DNA from: Paenibacillus silviterrae
GTDB taxonomy: Bacteria > Bacillota > Bacilli > Paenibacillales > NBRC-103111
DNA: 64,000 bases
Reading direction: 5' to 3'
Assembly: GCF_030167925.1 (NCBI RefSeq)
Contig: NZ_JASKUT010000001.1
Span: forward strand, 868,001-932,000
Position numbers and translations under genes: made by a program. The notes under the pieces were generated by a model that worked only from the letters and a program-made list of their open reading frames with translations, was not told where the DNA came from and ran no database searches. This document shows positions 19,361-60,785 of the stretch, piece by piece; position 1 is the stretch's first letter, and every line of letters begins with the position of its first letter.

Positions 19361-19427
19361 CTCGACAAAAGAAGACGCTCACCACCACCACGTTTCAACA
19401 GACTTTGATGATAGATTGCTATATACT
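19361..19427 (+). promoter_or_regulatory. Probable Spo0A-controlled spoIIG promoter
   Basis: A -10 hexamer TATACT lies at 19422-19427. Upstream, CTCGACAAA (19361-19369) and TTCAACAGA (19394-19402) match the reverse of the Spo0A box (TTYGACAAA) at 8/9 and 7/9. The second overlaps the place of the -35 element, with no good -35 at normal spacing, as in the B. subtilis spoIIG promoter, which Spo0A~P activates with sigma-A. The match by layout is good but the boxes are imperfect. Confidence 0.5.
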
Positions 19428-19473
19428 TGTCTCATTCGTGACGAATGGGCTTCAAGCTGGGAGGTATAGGAGA

Positions 19474-20373
19474 ATGATTGTGTACATCGATATCATTTTC
19501 CTGGTGAATCTCATCATCGATGGACTGCTGCTTTGGACTACCGCCTGGTCGAGGAAGCTGAGCTTTCGTTGGTGGAGGCTGCTGTTATCCGCCGGCATAG
19601 GAGCAGGCTATGTCGTGTTTCTATTTTTTCCGCCTCTTGATGTATTGTTCACGTTCGGCGTTAAGTTTCTCTTGTCCCTACTCATGCTGCTAACGGCATT
19701 CGGCTATGGCGGGCTTCAGCATTTTCTGAGAAATTTAGGCTCATTCTACCTTATTAACTTCGCTGCAGCCGGTACGATTCTTGGTGTGCACTATTTCCTG
19801 CAATCCTCAAGCGAAGTGGTTAGCGGTATCGTGTATGGTCATCAGCTCAACGTAGCGGTGACACTGGCCGTGGTCTCGCTGCCCTTCGGGTTCTGGTTAT
19901 TCCGGCAAGTCTCCTCCTTCGCCAAGCGGAAGGAACAGCTTTCGACCTTTATAGCCAAAGTGGACGTACATATCGATGATTTTTTCTCCAGCTGCACTGG
20001 GCTCATTGATACAGGCAATCAGCTGTATGATCCTCTGACCAAAACGCCGGTCATGGTCATGGAGGCCGCCCAATGGAGCGAGCAAATTCCAGAAGCCTGG
20101 ATGCAAAAAATCCGGCAGGCCGAAGTGGATCAAATCGTGACCGCGATCGGGACCGAGCCCTTCGTCTGGCAGGACCGGCTTCGATTAGTGCCTTATCGGG
20201 GGGTGAACCGCAACACGCAATTTATGCTGGCGATCAAACCAGATCGGGTCGTCATCACCACGGGCGAGACGCAAATCGAAGCGATGAAGGTGCTCATAGG
20301 CCTTGACGGGGGCAGGCTTAGCTCCGACAATGCGTACCAAGCGATCATTCATCCTTCGCTGCTGCAATCGTAA
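19474..20373 (+). CDS. spoIIGA: Sporulation sigma-E factor-processing peptidase SpoIIGA
   Basis: SpoIIGA is a membrane aspartic protease in the mother-cell septal membrane that removes the pro-sequence of sigma-E after a signal from SpoIIR. The 299-residue product has about five membrane segments in its first 150 residues and a cytosolic protease half with the catalytic motif [11 protein letters not shown] (Asp179; Asp183 in B. subtilis). The upstream frame is open, but ATG 19474 has the site GGGAGGTATAGG and starts the expected first membrane helix. It is followed 62 bp later by its substrate gene sigE. Confidence 0.95.
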
Positions 20374-25871: not shown

Positions 25872-25951
25872 GTTACGGATTGCAGGAAAATGTGGGCTCC
25901 TGTCGAATATAGCAATACCATACAGTCGGATAAAACTTTGGAGGTGCAGCA

Positions 25952-26431
25952 ATGGCTTTAACCCCGCTCGATATACATAATAAAGAATTCAGCCGTTCGT
26001 TCCGAGGCTATGACGAAGACCAGGTGAACGAGTTCCTCGACCAAGTGATCAAGGATTACGAGGCATTGATCCGTGAAAATAAAGATTTGCAGAATCAGCT
26101 CGCATCGATTCAAGAGCGTCTGGACCATTTTTCGAATATTGAGGAAACCCTCAGCAAAACGATCATTGTGGCGCAGGAAGCTGCGGACGAAGTGAAAACG
26201 AACGCCAAGAAGGAAGCGCAATTGATCCTGAAGGAAGCGGAGAAGAACGCGGACCGGATCATCAACGAATCGCTTGTCAAATCCCGCAAGATCGCCCTTG
26301 AGATCGAAGAGCTGAAGAAGCAGGCCTCCATCTACCGCACGCGCTTCCGCACGCTGATTGAAGCTCAGCTCGAGCTGCTCAGCACGGAGGATTGGAGCAC
26401 CTTGGAGAAAATTGAGATCGAATCCAACTGA
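25952..26431 (+). CDS. divIVA: Cell division initiation protein DivIVA
   Basis: DivIVA is a coiled-coil protein that gathers at curved membranes (poles and septa), placing Min proteins and, in sporulation, helping anchor the chromosome. The 159-residue protein begins MALTPLDIHNKEFSRSFRGY; Phe17 and Arg18 match the membrane-inserting pair of B. subtilis DivIVA. Residues 25-60 and 70-150 are heptad-rich coiled coil. ATG start after TTTGGAGGTGC. It has its own region downstream of the ylmH terminator and precedes the ileS promoter. Confidence 0.96.
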   Translation: MALTPLDIHNKEFSRSFRGYDEDQVNEFLDQVIKDYEALIRENKDLQNQLASIQERLDHFSNIEETLSKTIIVAQEAADEVKTNAKKEAQLILKEAEKNADRIINESLVKSRKIALEIEELKKQASIYRTRFRTLIEAQLELLSTEDWSTLEKIEIESN

Positions 26432-56445: not shown

Positions 56446-56487
56446 AAAAAAAACCTGTACCTCATTTGCGAGGTGCAGGTTTTTTTG
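56446..56487. terminator. Bidirectional terminator between leuD and the GGDEF-EAL gene
   Basis: AACCTGTACCTC pairs with GAGGTGCAGGTT (one mismatch) around a 6-base loop, flanked by eight As and seven Ts. It overlaps the last codons of the minus-strand gene. Confidence 0.92.
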
Positions 56488-58525
56488 TCATATACTGCTT
56501 TAAGAGAGCTGACATTTCTGCGGCGCTATCCGGCTTGCTGAACATGTAGCCTTGCATTTGTGTGCAGCCCATACCAAGCAGCTTGTCTTTATCCTCAGCG
56601 CTCTCCACTCCCTCGGCAATCACGTTTAGCTGCAAACTTTTTGCCATGGCAATGACCGCTTTCATAATAGCATCCTTGCCATCCTTTACAAAGGAACGAT
56701 CGATCTTGATGGTATGAATGGGAAATTTCTCAAGATAGCCTATGGATGAATAACCGGTCCCGAAATCATCGATAGAAATAGAAATGCCGAGGTCAGCCAG
56801 CTTCTGAAGAATGTGAACGGTATGGTGGACATTACTCATCGCCGCCGTCTCGGTAACCTCTAAATGAAGATGAGCCGGCTCGAGACCGCATTGATCCAAC
56901 GCATCCTTTACAACGGCTGTAAAGTGTCCTTGCTCCAGCTGTTTCACCGACACATTCACGGAGATAAAAAAGTCGGAGAAGCCTTGATCGATCCATTCCT
57001 TGGTTTGCTTGCAGGCCTGCTGCAGGACCCATTGTCCGATGGCCTCGATCAAGCCGATTTCCTCCGCTATAGCAATAAACTCCATGGGAGGAACGAAGCT
57101 CCCGTTCAATTTCCAACGTAGAAGTGCCTCCATGCCTTTGATTCGGTTATTCTCCGCATCAACAATCGGCTGGTAATGGACTTCCAGCTCATCGTGCTCC
57201 AATGCCTTGCGAAGTCCCTGTTCAAGCAGTAAGCGTTCCTGATACTTATCAGTAAGGTCATCCGTAAACAGCTGATACGTGTTCTTTCCTTTTGCTTTAG
57301 ACAAATACATAGCTTGATCCGCACGTTGAATCAGATCTTCATAGTGATGTCCATGGATCGGATAGCCGCTAATTCCGATGCTTGCGGTGATGATCAATTC
57401 ATAACCGGCGAGCAGGAAAGGCTCGGACAACCGGAGAAGAATACGCTTGGCTGCATCGCCGGCATCAGACAAACTCGAAATATTCTCAACAATAACCGCA
57501 AATTCATCCCCGCCAAGCCTGGCCACTTTAGCGTTCTCGGGAACACTGCGGCTGATGCGGAGCGCGGCCGCGCATAACAGCTGATCTCCCAGCTCGTGAC
57601 CGAGCGAATCGTTAATGACCTTGAAGCCGTCTAAATCGAGATACAGGACGGCGGCCATTTGTCCGCAGCGCTCGGCCCGCTCCATGGCGTCCGTGAGCTG
57701 AGTACGGACACAGCGGCGGTTCGGCAGGCCTGTTAATGCATCGCGATACGCCATGTCATGCAGTCGAACCTCGGTTTGCTTGCGCTCGGTGATATCCGTA
57801 ATCACCCCGTCGAGCCTCAGCAGCTCACCGTATTCATCCATCACGGGAACCGTGTAATCATATATCCAGCGAAGGCTGCCGTCTGCCCGAAAAATTCGAT
57901 ACTCGTGCTTGATTTTCATGCCATCCCCCAGAGAAGCTTGCTTTTCCTCGACTCTTGGCAAATCCTCCGGGTGAATCAGCTGCCTCCACAGACTGGGCTC
58001 ATGAGAGAAATCTTCCTGCGTATACCCGTAAATTATTTGACAGGCTGGGGATATACTGAGCAGCTTACGGCTTCGAACGTCCATAGACCAGAGACAAACG
58101 TCGATGGATTCAAATATGTTTTGCAAATGCATTTGTGTGGTCAACAGAGCTTTTTCCAGCTGCTTACGGTGGGTCATATCCTTTGCGATCCCAATAACGC
58201 CGGTAATTTGTCCGCGGGTCATTACCGGTACGGCAGTTATGGTGATATCCGCATGCTCGCCGTTTTTTCGAAGAATCCCAATGTCGAAATCGGCACGATG
58301 TCCGTGATAAGCTACCTTCCGAAAAATCATTTGGGACATCGGAACATATGCGGGCGCTATCAGAGGGAGGAAGGAGATGCCGATTAGTTCCTTCTCCGAA
58401 TAGCCTGTAACCTGAAAGAAGGCTTCGTTGCAGGCGGTGAACCTTCCCTTTAAGTCAACCACATAGCAGGGGTCCGGATTATCATCGAAAAGAGAAATCA
58501 AGGAGTTTTGCAAAATAACATCCAT
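56462..58525 (-). CDS. PAS-PAS-GGDEF-EAL cyclic-di-GMP signalling protein
   Basis: A 687-residue cytosolic protein without visible membrane segments. Domains in order: PAS (about 5-115), PAS with PAC (about 130-245, with HEYRIFRADGSLRWIYDY), GGDEF (about 250-415; GGDEF intact at 338-342, in RLGGDEFAVIVEN) and EAL (about 425-675; EALLRWK intact from Glu466, DDFGTGYSS present). Both catalytic signatures are therefore complete, so it could make and break c-di-GMP, with the PAS domains sensing a signal. The start is ATG 58523-58525; an upstream GTG adds three codons. Possible Spo0A box before the gene. Confidence 0.93.
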   Translation of the reverse strand: MDVILQNSLISLFDDNPDPCYVVDLKGRFTACNEAFFQVTGYSEKELIGISFLPLIAPAYVPMSQMIFRKVAYHGHRADFDIGILRKNGEHADITITAVPVMTRGQITGVIGIAKDMTHRKQLEKALLTTQMHLQNIFESIDVCLWSMDVRSRKLLSISPACQIIYGYTQEDFSHEPSLWRQLIHPEDLPRVEEKQASLGDGMKIKHEYRIFRADGSLRWIYDYTVPVMDEYGELLRLDGVITDITERKQTEVRLHDMAYRDALTGLPNRRCVRTQLTDAMERAERCGQMAAVLYLDLDGFKVINDSLGHELGDQLLCAAALRISRSVPENAKVARLGGDEFAVIVENISSLSDAGDAAKRILLRLSEPFLLAGYELIITASIGISGYPIHGHHYEDLIQRADQAMYLSKAKGKNTYQLFTDDLTDKYQERLLLEQGLRKALEHDELEVHYQPIVDAENNRIKGMEALLRWKLNGSFVPPMEFIAIAEEIGLIEAIGQWVLQQACKQTKEWIDQGFSDFFISVNVSVKQLEQGHFTAVVKDALDQCGLEPAHLHLEVTETAAMSNVHHTVHILQKLADLGISISIDDFGTGYSSIGYLEKFPIHTIKIDRSFVKDGKDAIMKAVIAMAKSLQLNVIAEGVESAEDKDKLLGMGCTQMQGYMFSKPDSAAEMSALLKQYMTKKPAPRK

Positions 58526-58561
58526 GGTAAACACCGCCCATTTATTTCATCACTCTTCTTA

Positions 58562-58570
58562 TTCGACAAA
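58562..58570 (-). promoter_or_regulatory. Perfect Spo0A box facing the GGDEF-EAL gene
   Basis: On the minus strand TTTGTCGAA, a 9/9 match to the 0A box TTTGTCRAA, 37 bp before the start codon of the GGDEF-EAL gene. A GATAAT-like -10 lies just upstream of it on that strand, which would place the box in the transcribed start region, a position fitting repression. Confidence 0.6.
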
Positions 58571-58578
58571 AAAAGACA

Positions 58579-58598
58579 TTATCCTTCCCTTAGGATAA
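58579..58598. promoter_or_regulatory. Inverted repeat TTATCC-N8-GGATAA
   Basis: Perfect 6-bp arms at 58579-58584 and 58593-58598. One arm contains the GATAAT-like -10 of the minus-strand gene. It may be an operator or just promoter overlap. Confidence 0.35.
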
Positions 58599-58627
58599 CG
58601 ATCTAAGCTTCTCGGCGGTTTTTCCTT

Positions 58628-58650
58628 TTTGTCGAACGGTTGTGTATAAT
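58628..58650 (+). promoter_or_regulatory. Perfect Spo0A box and -10 of the hbd-ackA promoter
   Basis: TTTGTCGAA at 58628-58636 is a second 9/9 Spo0A box; TATAAT at 58645-58650 is a perfect -10. The box takes the place just downstream of a missing -35, close to the arrangement of Spo0A-bound promoters. The gene starts 49 bp after the -10. Confidence 0.6.
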
Positions 58651-58698
58651 AACACTGAGCAGAAGTGGTTAGACGAGTGAAGGAGTGTATCGTGAACT

Positions 58699-59574
58699 AT
58701 GTTGACATACAGCCGTATCGGTGTAGTGGGAGCAGGGACGATGGGTCAAGGCATTGCGCAGATGCTGGCGGCTCAAGGGCTGGAGGTGGTGCTCGTTGAA
58801 CGCTCCCAGGAGAAGATCGATCAGGCCCTCAAGCAGATAGAGATGAGCCTGGATAAGCAGCTGGAGAAATGGGCCATCACCGCCGTCGAGAAGAAGCTGA
58901 TTCTCGGAAGAATTCAATGCAGCCGGGAGCTGCAGCCGCTGGCGGATTGTCAGCTGGTCATTGAATCCGTAAGCGAGGATGTGGACATCAAGAAGCAGCT
59001 GTTCCGCGAGCTGGATGCCGTTTGTCCGAAGCCTATCATCCTGGCCAGTAATACATCCACTCTCAGCCTGACGGAAATTGCGGCGGAAACCGGATGCCCC
59101 GAAAGGGTAATCGGTTTGCACTTTATATATCCTGTATCCAAAATCGATCTTGTGGAAATCATCCGGGGCTTGCGCACAAGTGAACAGACCTTCACTGAAA
59201 CGAAAAGGTTCGTTGAAAATACGATTCAGAAGCGGGGCATTCAGGTCTATGAATCCCCTGGCTTCGTAACGACCCGGCTGATCTGCACCCTGATCAACGA
59301 GGCGCTGCACGTGCTGTCGGAGGGGGTAGCCACAGCGGAGGATATCGATGCGGCAATGCGTATCGGTTATGACTTTCACTACGGACCGCTGGAGATGGCG
59401 GACCGGTTCGGGCTCGATTCCGTGCTGGCCGCGATGGAGCGGATGTTCCGGGAGTTCGGAGATCTGAAATATCGTCCGGCCGTCCGGCTGAAGCAAATGG
59501 TGAGGGCGGGGCATTTGGGGACCAAAACGGGGCAAGGCTTTTTTCGATATGATGAGGACGGTGACCGGCTATGA
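58699..59574 (+). CDS. 3-hydroxyacyl-CoA dehydrogenase family protein (3-hydroxybutyryl-CoA dehydrogenase-like)
   Basis: A 291-residue NAD-dependent dehydrogenase with the Rossmann loop GVVGAGTMGQGIAQML and the C-terminal GTKTGQGFFRYDEDG. The catalytic His is present in GLHFIYPVSKIDLVEII, but the usual HFFNP is changed to HFIYP. The usual PGFVVNR is PGFVTTR here, so the substrate-contacting Asn of the family is Thr. It may act on another 3-hydroxy acid or acyl-CoA. ATG start after AAGGAGTG. Its stop overlaps the ackA start (ATGA). Confidence 0.8.
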   Translation: MLTYSRIGVVGAGTMGQGIAQMLAAQGLEVVLVERSQEKIDQALKQIEMSLDKQLEKWAITAVEKKLILGRIQCSRELQPLADCQLVIESVSEDVDIKKQLFRELDAVCPKPIILASNTSTLSLTEIAAETGCPERVIGLHFIYPVSKIDLVEIIRGLRTSEQTFTETKRFVENTIQKRGIQVYESPGFVTTRLICTLINEALHVLSEGVATAEDIDAAMRIGYDFHYGPLEMADRFGLDSVLAAMERMFREFGDLKYRPAVRLKQMVRAGHLGTKTGQGFFRYDEDGDRL

Positions 59575-60785
59575 ACGTGCTTGTTATTAATGCGGGGAGC
59601 TCGTCGCTTAAATTTCAGCTTTACAATATGGAGGACGAATCAGTGCTGGCCAAGGGCCGGGTAGAGCGCATCGGCATGGAATCGGCGATTCTGACCTATG
59701 AACCGGGTGATAGGCCGGAGGTCCGGGAAGTCGAGGAGGTGCTCGAGCATACGACCGCCGTCCGCAAGGTGCTGGAGATGCTGGTTCATCGCACGCACGG
59801 CGTGCTTACCTCCGTTCAAGAGATCGATGCCGTCGGCCATCGGGTTGTGCACGGAGGAGAGACGTTCTCCAGCTCGGTGATCGTGAATGAGGAAGTGAAG
59901 CGCGAAATCAAACGTTTGTTCGATCTGGCGCCCTTGCACAATCCTGCGGCCATGCTCGGCTTGAATGCGGTGGAAGCGAATATGCCGGACACCCCGCAGG
60001 CGCTTGTGTTTGATACCTCCTTCCACCAGTCCATGCCGCCGGTTTCTTATTTGTACCCGATCCCTATGGTGCTGTATAAAAAGCACAAGGTTCGGCGTTA
60101 CGGCTTCCATGGCACCTCCCACGCTTATGTGAGCGAACGGGCGGCCGCATACCTTGGGCGCCCTCTGGAGAAATTGAAGCTGGTGACCTGCCACATCGGG
60201 AACGGGGCAAGCTGTGCAGCGATCCTGGAAGGCAAATCTGTCGATACCAGCATGGGAATGACCCCGCTGGAAGGCTTGATGATGGGAACGCGCAGCGGCG
60301 ATATCGATCCGGCCATCGTGCCTTTCACGATGGGCAAGGAAGAGCTGACCTTGAACGAGGTAAGCTCCATGCTCAACAAACACAGCGGCTTAATGGCGAT
60401 ATCGGGCCTCGGCAGCGATATGCGTGAGGTTACGCAAGCGATGGAGGCGGGGGATCGCAACGCGAAGCTTGCCTTCGATATGTATGAGTACCGTCTGCGC
60501 AAGTATATAGGTTCTTACGCGGCTGCGATGAACGGACTGGACGCGATCGTGTTCACGGCTGGAGTGGGGGAGAATTCTGCTGTGCTTCGGGCGGCGGTGT
60601 GCCGGAATCTCACTTACTTCGGAGTGGATCTCGATGAGGAGGCCAATGCCCGCCGGGAGCCGGGGGACAGGGAAATCACCAAGCCGGGATCGCGCGTTAA
60701 GGTGCTGATCATCCCTACGAATGAAGAGCTGGTCATTGCACGCGATACGCATCGATTGATTTTGGAACAAAACCGTGTAAAATAA
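59571..60785 (+). CDS. ackA: Acetate kinase
   Basis: AckA moves phosphate between acetyl phosphate and ADP. The 404-residue ASKHA-fold protein has LVINAGSSSLKFQLYN, VGHRVVHGGETFSSS, GFHGTSHAYVSERAA, CHIGNGASCAAI and FTAGVGENSAVLR, all in order. No phosphotransacetylase gene is next to it. It is coupled to the dehydrogenase gene by a four-base overlap; acetate kinase is favoured over butyrate or propionate kinase by these motifs, but narrow substrate choice cannot be read. Confidence 0.93.
   Translation: MNVLVINAGSSSLKFQLYNMEDESVLAKGRVERIGMESAILTYEPGDRPEVREVEEVLEHTTAVRKVLEMLVHRTHGVLTSVQEIDAVGHRVVHGGETFSSSVIVNEEVKREIKRLFDLAPLHNPAAMLGLNAVEANMPDTPQALVFDTSFHQSMPPVSYLYPIPMVLYKKHKVRRYGFHGTSHAYVSERAAAYLGRPLEKLKLVTCHIGNGASCAAILEGKSVDTSMGMTPLEGLMMGTRSGDIDPAIVPFTMGKEELTLNEVSSMLNKHSGLMAISGLGSDMREVTQAMEAGDRNAKLAFDMYEYRLRKYIGSYAAAMNGLDAIVFTAGVGENSAVLRAAVCRNLTYFGVDLDEEANARREPGDREITKPGSRVKVLIIPTNEELVIARDTHRLILEQNRVK

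Follow-up and report, generated by a model that had tools for sequence, protein, structure and literature searches.

The 164-bp intergenic gap between a GGDEF-EAL gene (minus strand) and the divergent hbd-ackA pair (plus strand) of Paenibacillus silviterrae (58535-58698 of the 64,000-nucleotide stretch analyzed here, referred to as the window) carries what we tentatively read as a sigma-H promoter of the GGDEF-EAL gene, back to back with a Spo0A box in the hbd-ackA promoter. We favor this reading with a confidence that falls a little short of even. Sigma-H use, Spo0A binding and the direction of control are what we infer from the nucleotide sequence; on that basis, a c-di-GMP enzyme as well as a gene pair of acid metabolism may come under control when cells enter sporulation.

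The genome around the window comprises 7.44 Mb in four contigs. On the minus strand, the open reading frame and domain matches define a PAS-PAS-GGDEF-EAL protein of 690 aa with a GTG start (56462..58534), for which an alternative ATG start at 58525 is possible by eye. Its GGDEF and EAL domains were both above the cut-off and, judged by domains alone, the enzyme may make or break c-di-GMP. The plus strand encodes an hbd-like 3-hydroxyacyl-CoA dehydrogenase of 291 aa (58699..59574), identified by Pfam, although no NCBIfam model among the 25 shown reaches its cut-off, followed by ackA, an acetate/propionate family kinase (59571..60785; TIGR00016 above cut-off). Gene starts were set mechanically as the longest ORF, and the hbd promoter counts and tree given below use the aligned first residue as the hbd start. 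An Rfam scan of 58300-58900 gave no match.

The gap contains two perfect matches to the 0A box, TTTGTCGAA, one on the minus strand (58562..58570), overlapping the -10 of the predicted GGDEF-EAL sigma-H promoter, and one on the plus strand (58628..58636; core TGTCGAA at 58630-58636), within the hbd core promoter. The sequence-only reading had described two perfect 9-mers on opposite strands, 66 bp apart from start to start, with a TATAAT beside one of them, and these positions were confirmed, the TATAAT lying at 58645-58650, 8 bp past the plus-site core. Its view that two perfect sites in so short a gap are improbable also held, since about 0.03 such gaps are expected genome-wide, a figure obtained by arithmetic from the sampled intergenic rate over some 5,800 gaps.

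Both copies of TTTGTCGAA in the window are in this gap. Two or more copies anywhere in the window occurred in 13 of 100 whole-window shuffles, so that the number of copies says little by itself and it is their clustering that matters. Genome-wide, 103 copies were found in 7.44 Mb, and the next closest pair among 100 places listed was 1,174 bp apart. The pattern read backwards, used as a control, had 163 copies, and TTTGTCGAA is thus not enriched in the genome overall. In a sample of 1.264 Mb (60 stretches of 20 kb plus the window, with 147 kb intergenic), 5 of 15 copies were intergenic, two of these being the window pair; the other three give an expectation of 0.003 per 164 bp and a probability of about 6e-6 per gap for at least two copies. 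The core TGTCGAA was found 37 times between genes in the same 147 kb vs. 15.2 on average for 180 permuted, CG-containing 7-mers, ranking second.

The fuller sigma-H consensus is RNAGGAWWW-N11/12-RNNGAATWW. The minus strand at 58559..58587 reads GAAGGATAA-TGTCTTTTTTT-GTCGAATAA and matches all named positions, which predicts a sigma-H promoter with AGGA at 58585-58582, GAAT at 58564-58561 and 17 nt between them. The sequence-only reading had not recognized that its minus-strand box forms the end of this consensus. The chance of AGGA at sigma-H spacing, at any position, is 1.3%. For Sporomusa, where dRNA-seq was used to map SigH promoters, AGGA plus GAAT with 17-18 nt between is described (PMC12456013). 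Since the -10 half reads TTTTGTCGAAT, a Spo0A box is matched too; this 0A match is contained within the full sigma-H consensus, and a sigma-H -10 element explains the minus site at least as well, though the site could be both.

Of 1365 background genes, 14 had the strict sigma-H pattern upstream in the sense orientation vs. 2 reversed and 1 antisense. Among 29 sense matches from the GGDEF and background sets, the letters before GAAW were GTC in 7 and ATC in 5, a preference suggesting that sigma-H may itself favor RTCGAAW and yield 0A matches. A T, the letter that a 0A box would want there, preceded the G in 6 of the 7 GTC cases. Sigma-H as the cause of all TTTGTCGAA sites was rejected: among 59 sampled loci, AGGA at sigma-H spacing accompanied one of 21 other intergenic and one of 38 coding copies, and the intergenic figure indicates that most of these sites are not sigma-H elements.

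Both regulators are encoded in the genome. Spo0A was found with 418 bits, and its DNA-binding domain aligns, nearly identical, along the full length of the chain in PDB 1lq1 (Stage 0 sporulation protein A), which we take to be the B. subtilis protein; the stretch SRVERAIRHAIEVAW, presumably the recognition helix, is identical. SigH matched TIGR02859 with 369.5 bits (cut-off 294.8). Among sporulation genes, spoIIAA is a sigma-H target, and the sigma-H consensus with GAAA for GAAT is present 47 bp before its open frame and at -84 of spo0A. Upstream of spo0A there are also TTTGTCGAA (-166), CATGTCGAA (-65) and the same sigma-H/0A composite as at the minus site; spo0A is reported as SigH-regulated (PMC12456013). 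No sigma-H consensus was found before spoIIE, and the upstream regions of spoIIE and sigF had no TGNCGAA, that of spoIIGA having one TGACGAA; near-consensus 0A boxes are described as usual at early sporulation genes (PMC3485338). In the window, spoIIGA (19405-20373, plus strand) is followed by two sigma-factor-like ORFs and is preceded by a near match, CTCGACAAA, rather than a perfect TGTCGAA core. Elsewhere in the window, a strict sigma-H consensus, GCAGGAAAAT...GTCGAAT (25882-25908, plus strand), is located upstream of divIVA (25952-26431, DivIVA by Pfam), with 43 bp to the start codon; a sigma-H promoter there would link the placement of the division site to the onset of sporulation.

A second PAS-GGDEF-EAL gene of the window genome (L262, G000:C1:5093350-5096350) has TTTGTCGAA just upstream and TATAAT close behind, without a sigma-H -35. 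This case prompted a test of the GGDEF genes as a set, which is therefore post hoc for the window genome, G000. There, the set comprised 34 of 35 GGDEF family matches (one of them, L297, below the family cut-off); the remaining match is the window gene itself, which was excluded. Three further genomes, G013, G016 and G002, with 39, 36 and 31 GGDEF matches, contributed 30 loci apiece, of which 26, 25 and 27 were testable.

TGTCGAA was present at -200 to +60 in 7/34 GGDEF genes of G000, 5/26 of G013, 2/25 of G016 and 7/27 of G002. This amounts to 21/112 overall compared to 86/1365 in a background from G000, G013 and G002 that includes the window gene and the GGDEF gene L153, at the same place as L293 (binomial, 6.4e-6), and TGTCGAA was the most frequent motif upstream of GGDEF genes when set against 480 control 7-mers. 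The three other genomes, serving as a check on the post hoc result, had it in 14/78, with no enrichment in G016 alone. The strict sigma-H pattern preceded 7/112 GGDEF genes in the four genomes vs. 14/1365 background genes (Fisher, 5.7e-4), and 9/112 vs. 20/1365 with GAAA allowed. AGGA at N11/12 from TGTCGAA was observed before GGDEF genes in 7 of 14 sense and none of 8 antisense cases, the background values being 4/41 and 2/44. In the orthologous GGDEF genes L310 and L341 (75% identical), the -35, the -10 and a T run preceding the -10 are kept and most of the spacer differs. A claim covering all GGDEF genes was rejected in view of the G016 value and of 29 non-window loci that the window protein retrieved within the genus, a part of which also belong to the GGDEF sets: the sigma-H consensus was found in none and TGTCGAA in 3.

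The closest homologue found for the GGDEF-EAL protein belongs to another genus of the family (L020 in G029; 50% identity over residues 8-538, where the locus ends). Approximately 185 bp before its start, TTTGTCGAATTT, which contains TTTGTCGAAT, is present in sense orientation. The -35 is degenerate, with AGGGGGAAA at the N11 position and GGGG where sigma-H needs AGGA, so that the strict pattern is absent; a second near match, TTTTTGTCGAT, occurs about 60 bp beyond TTTGTCGAATTT. Because TTTGTCGAAT is kept without the sigma-H -35, Spo0A may act at the minus site, and the letters upstream of L020 would speak for a Spo0A box or a composite there. The sequence-only proposal of Spo0A control on this side is therefore backed by L020 and weakened by the sigma-H -10, which explains the site at least equally well. 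Another homologue, L112 (44%), has neither a sigma-H -35 nor a TGTCGAA element upstream.

A GGDEF-EAL gene beside hbd was found in none of 16 congeners (L002-L015, L021, L023; 1.5 kb on each side), where leuD lies upstream of hbd, and in none of 80 named hbd loci (flanks of at most 5 kb), nearly all of them from Paenibacillus and with hbd at most 80% identical to that of the window. The best match to the GGDEF-EAL protein was at most 49% identical in each of 24 congeners. The divergent pair is thus, as far as seen, particular to this lineage. Conservation of the two-box arrangement, which the sequence-only reading had named as a check, was rejected, as no such operator occurs in these loci.

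On the hbd side, TATAAT (58645..58650, plus strand) is the predicted -10 element, and TTGTGTATAAT is retained at the hbd-ackA -10 in many near relatives. A simple scan of 58400-58800 for sigma-70-type promoters found none, which means that this TATAAT is without a good -35. The plus-site core has a T-rich flank and no AGGA at sigma-H spacing; likewise, none of 31 other box-bearing hbd loci had AGGA at this spacing or a sigma-H match within 150 bp. In the unselected set of 81 loci (the window plus the 80 named), 32 carry TGTCGAA no more than 120 bp before hbd. It is present in 9 of 45 promoter clusters and ranks first of 480 7-mers, with an average of 0.44 clusters for 180 permuted 7-mers. This recurrence, together with the conserved DNA-binding domain and the intergenic excess of TGTCGAA, supports the earlier proposal of Spo0A control as far as hbd is concerned.

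Along an hbd tree of 80 rows (L081, which lacks ackA, was excluded), the box state changes 8 times. One distant clade (starred, macerans/timonensis) has TGTCGAA in 18 of 18 rows; its seven core columns are all invariant and flanked by variable columns, and elsewhere 43 of 106 columns are invariant. The box is absent from the near relatives L026, L027, L033 and L044, and from the rows nearest to the window on the tree (L044, L048, L050); the window seems to have gained its hbd box separately. In macerans/timonensis promoters, some 7 bp separate the end of TTCGACA from TACAAT; apart from L101, the rows compared here had been selected because they carry the box. The tyrfis/elgii group has it farther upstream, at about -93. 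Box and promoter thus recur among hbd genes, though at no one fixed place.

Further observations were made on these promoters. The 18 macerans/timonensis loci (among L065-L105) share a strongly conserved block, GCTAAGATATTATTATATGTTGGGT, at about -97 to -71, upstream of the 0A box, and in many tyrfis/elgii promoters (e.g., L028) a dyad, AACGC-CGAAA-GCGTT, directly precedes GTGTATAAT, a possible operator for another regulator. Two candidates were discarded. In the macerans/timonensis clade, a TTTGTCGAA near -229 of hbd, considered as a second box, lies inside an upstream ORF ending at -121 to -134 in the four loci looked at (L065, L088, L096, L099). The window genome also has a second hbd-ackA pair (L025, G000:C1:2468526; 63 and 62% identical), whose upstream region, without TG[ACT]CGAA, gives no support for the hbd box.

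Instead of a sigma-H promoter facing a Spo0A box, both sites may be true Spo0A boxes, through which Spo0A~P would repress or switch both genes, the sigma-H likeness of the minus site being incidental. This is possible, though we regard it as doubtful. The occurrence of two perfect 9-mers in one gap, the conserved Spo0A binding domain and the intergenic excess of TGTCGAA all suit it, as do the 14 of 21 GGDEF genes that have TGTCGAA without a sigma-H-spaced AGGA, the retention of TTTGTCGAAT in L020 with a degenerate sigma-H -35, and the T run before GTCGAAT in the window, L310 and L341. However, it leaves AGGA at the exact sigma-H spacing to coincidence, at the 1.3% given above, and the GTC (7/29) and ATC (5/29) triplets before GAAW suggest that sigma-H alone can make a 0A match. 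Doubt may also fall on the plus strand, where the match could be a functionless chance 9-mer, the gap then consisting of a sigma-H promoter and an ordinary hbd promoter. Near relatives do without the box, and the intergenic rate (37 in 147 kb) predicts TGTCGAA in about 4% of such gaps; yet this is a full 9-mer, it lies within a core promoter, and 0A boxes recur in hbd promoters; a chance origin is unlikely.

The sigma-H -35 is also part of a terminator-like hairpin on the minus strand (58577..58600; 9 pairs and a loop of 6, then a T run), with an inverted repeat, TTATCCT-N6-AGGATAA, at 58579-58598, one arm of which is the -35 itself. This dyad and T run could represent an intrinsic terminator or a leader hairpin with TTTTTTTGTCGAA as its U tract, in which case neither regulator would act. 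Such a role, to which the terminator-like call (58600-58577) and an RNA fold of -11 kcal/mol (z -2.65) lend some weight, seems very improbable to us: hbd-ackA points away, so that there is no minus-strand gene directly upstream to terminate, shuffles expect 0.3 such calls, and GTCGAATAA at sigma-H spacing would be left unexplained.

If the gap is a sigma-H promoter back to back with a Spo0A box, sigma-H would turn the GGDEF-EAL gene on through GAAGGATAA-N11-GTCGAATAA as cells leave growth. Rising Spo0A~P would occupy the hbd core promoter, between the -35 region and TATAAT, lowering hbd-ackA expression, and may additionally damp the sigma-H promoter of the GGDEF-EAL gene. The plus site is placed between -35 and -10 and the minus site over the sigma-H -10. 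Read from this geometry, both would more simply be sites of repression by Spo0A~P, and activation of the GGDEF-EAL gene would be possible through sigma-H only. The opposite-direction switching of the two genes proposed previously is not supported, both sites being inside the stretch occupied by polymerase, where their position suggests a block at both.

A more general proposal is that sigma-H drives a set of c-di-GMP enzymes in Paenibacillus via a -10, TGTCGAAT, that doubles as a Spo0A box; sigma-H would start and Spo0A~P would stop their expression, producing a pulse of c-di-GMP turnover timed to the onset of sporulation, and the window gene would have been recently placed beside a Spo0A-controlled hbd-ackA promoter. 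We consider this proposal speculative and, as a whole, rather unlikely.

With its AGGA and GAAT halves 17 nt apart, in sense orientation and near the gene, the minus site resembles the sigma-H promoters of other Bacillota, such as spo0A Ps and spoIIA; it differs from them in that the promoter is predicted and the gene encodes a c-di-GMP enzyme instead of a core sporulation function. In B. subtilis, Spo0A represses the c-di-GMP phosphodiesterase gene pdeH (yuxH), whose protein differs in architecture from the window GGDEF-EAL protein. The link between sporulation control and c-di-GMP turnover is common to both, whereas for the window gene sigma-H is the somewhat better-supported regulator. A TGTCGAA core with a T-rich flank adjoining a promoter is shared with 0A-box target promoters, the core and its contacts being as described in PMC3485338. 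Unlike in those promoters, the minus match overlaps a sigma-H -10; the plus match, between -35 and -10, would by its position suit a repressor site. Candidate Spo0A boxes near fermentation genes also recall the clostridial control of acid and solvent genes by Spo0A (for Spo0A and 0A boxes in clostridia, see PMC8102284), the Paenibacillus counterpart being the hbd-ackA pair, at which boxes come and go between clades. In C. difficile, c-di-GMP is reported to lower early sporulation gene expression (PMC8653836). Among the literature matches listed, judged by titles and abstract openings, no report tied Spo0A or sigma-H to Paenibacillus c-di-GMP genes or to hbd-ackA.

Since the sigma-H -10 (RNNGAAT) and the Spo0A box (TGTCGAA) share letters, sigma-H promoters can be misassigned when only boxes are searched for, and checking for AGGA at 11 or 12 nt helps to tell the two apart. 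If the arrangement described here is true, early sporulation control would extend to the large set of c-di-GMP genes in Paenibacillus, and Spo0A would recurrently target hbd-ackA within the genus.
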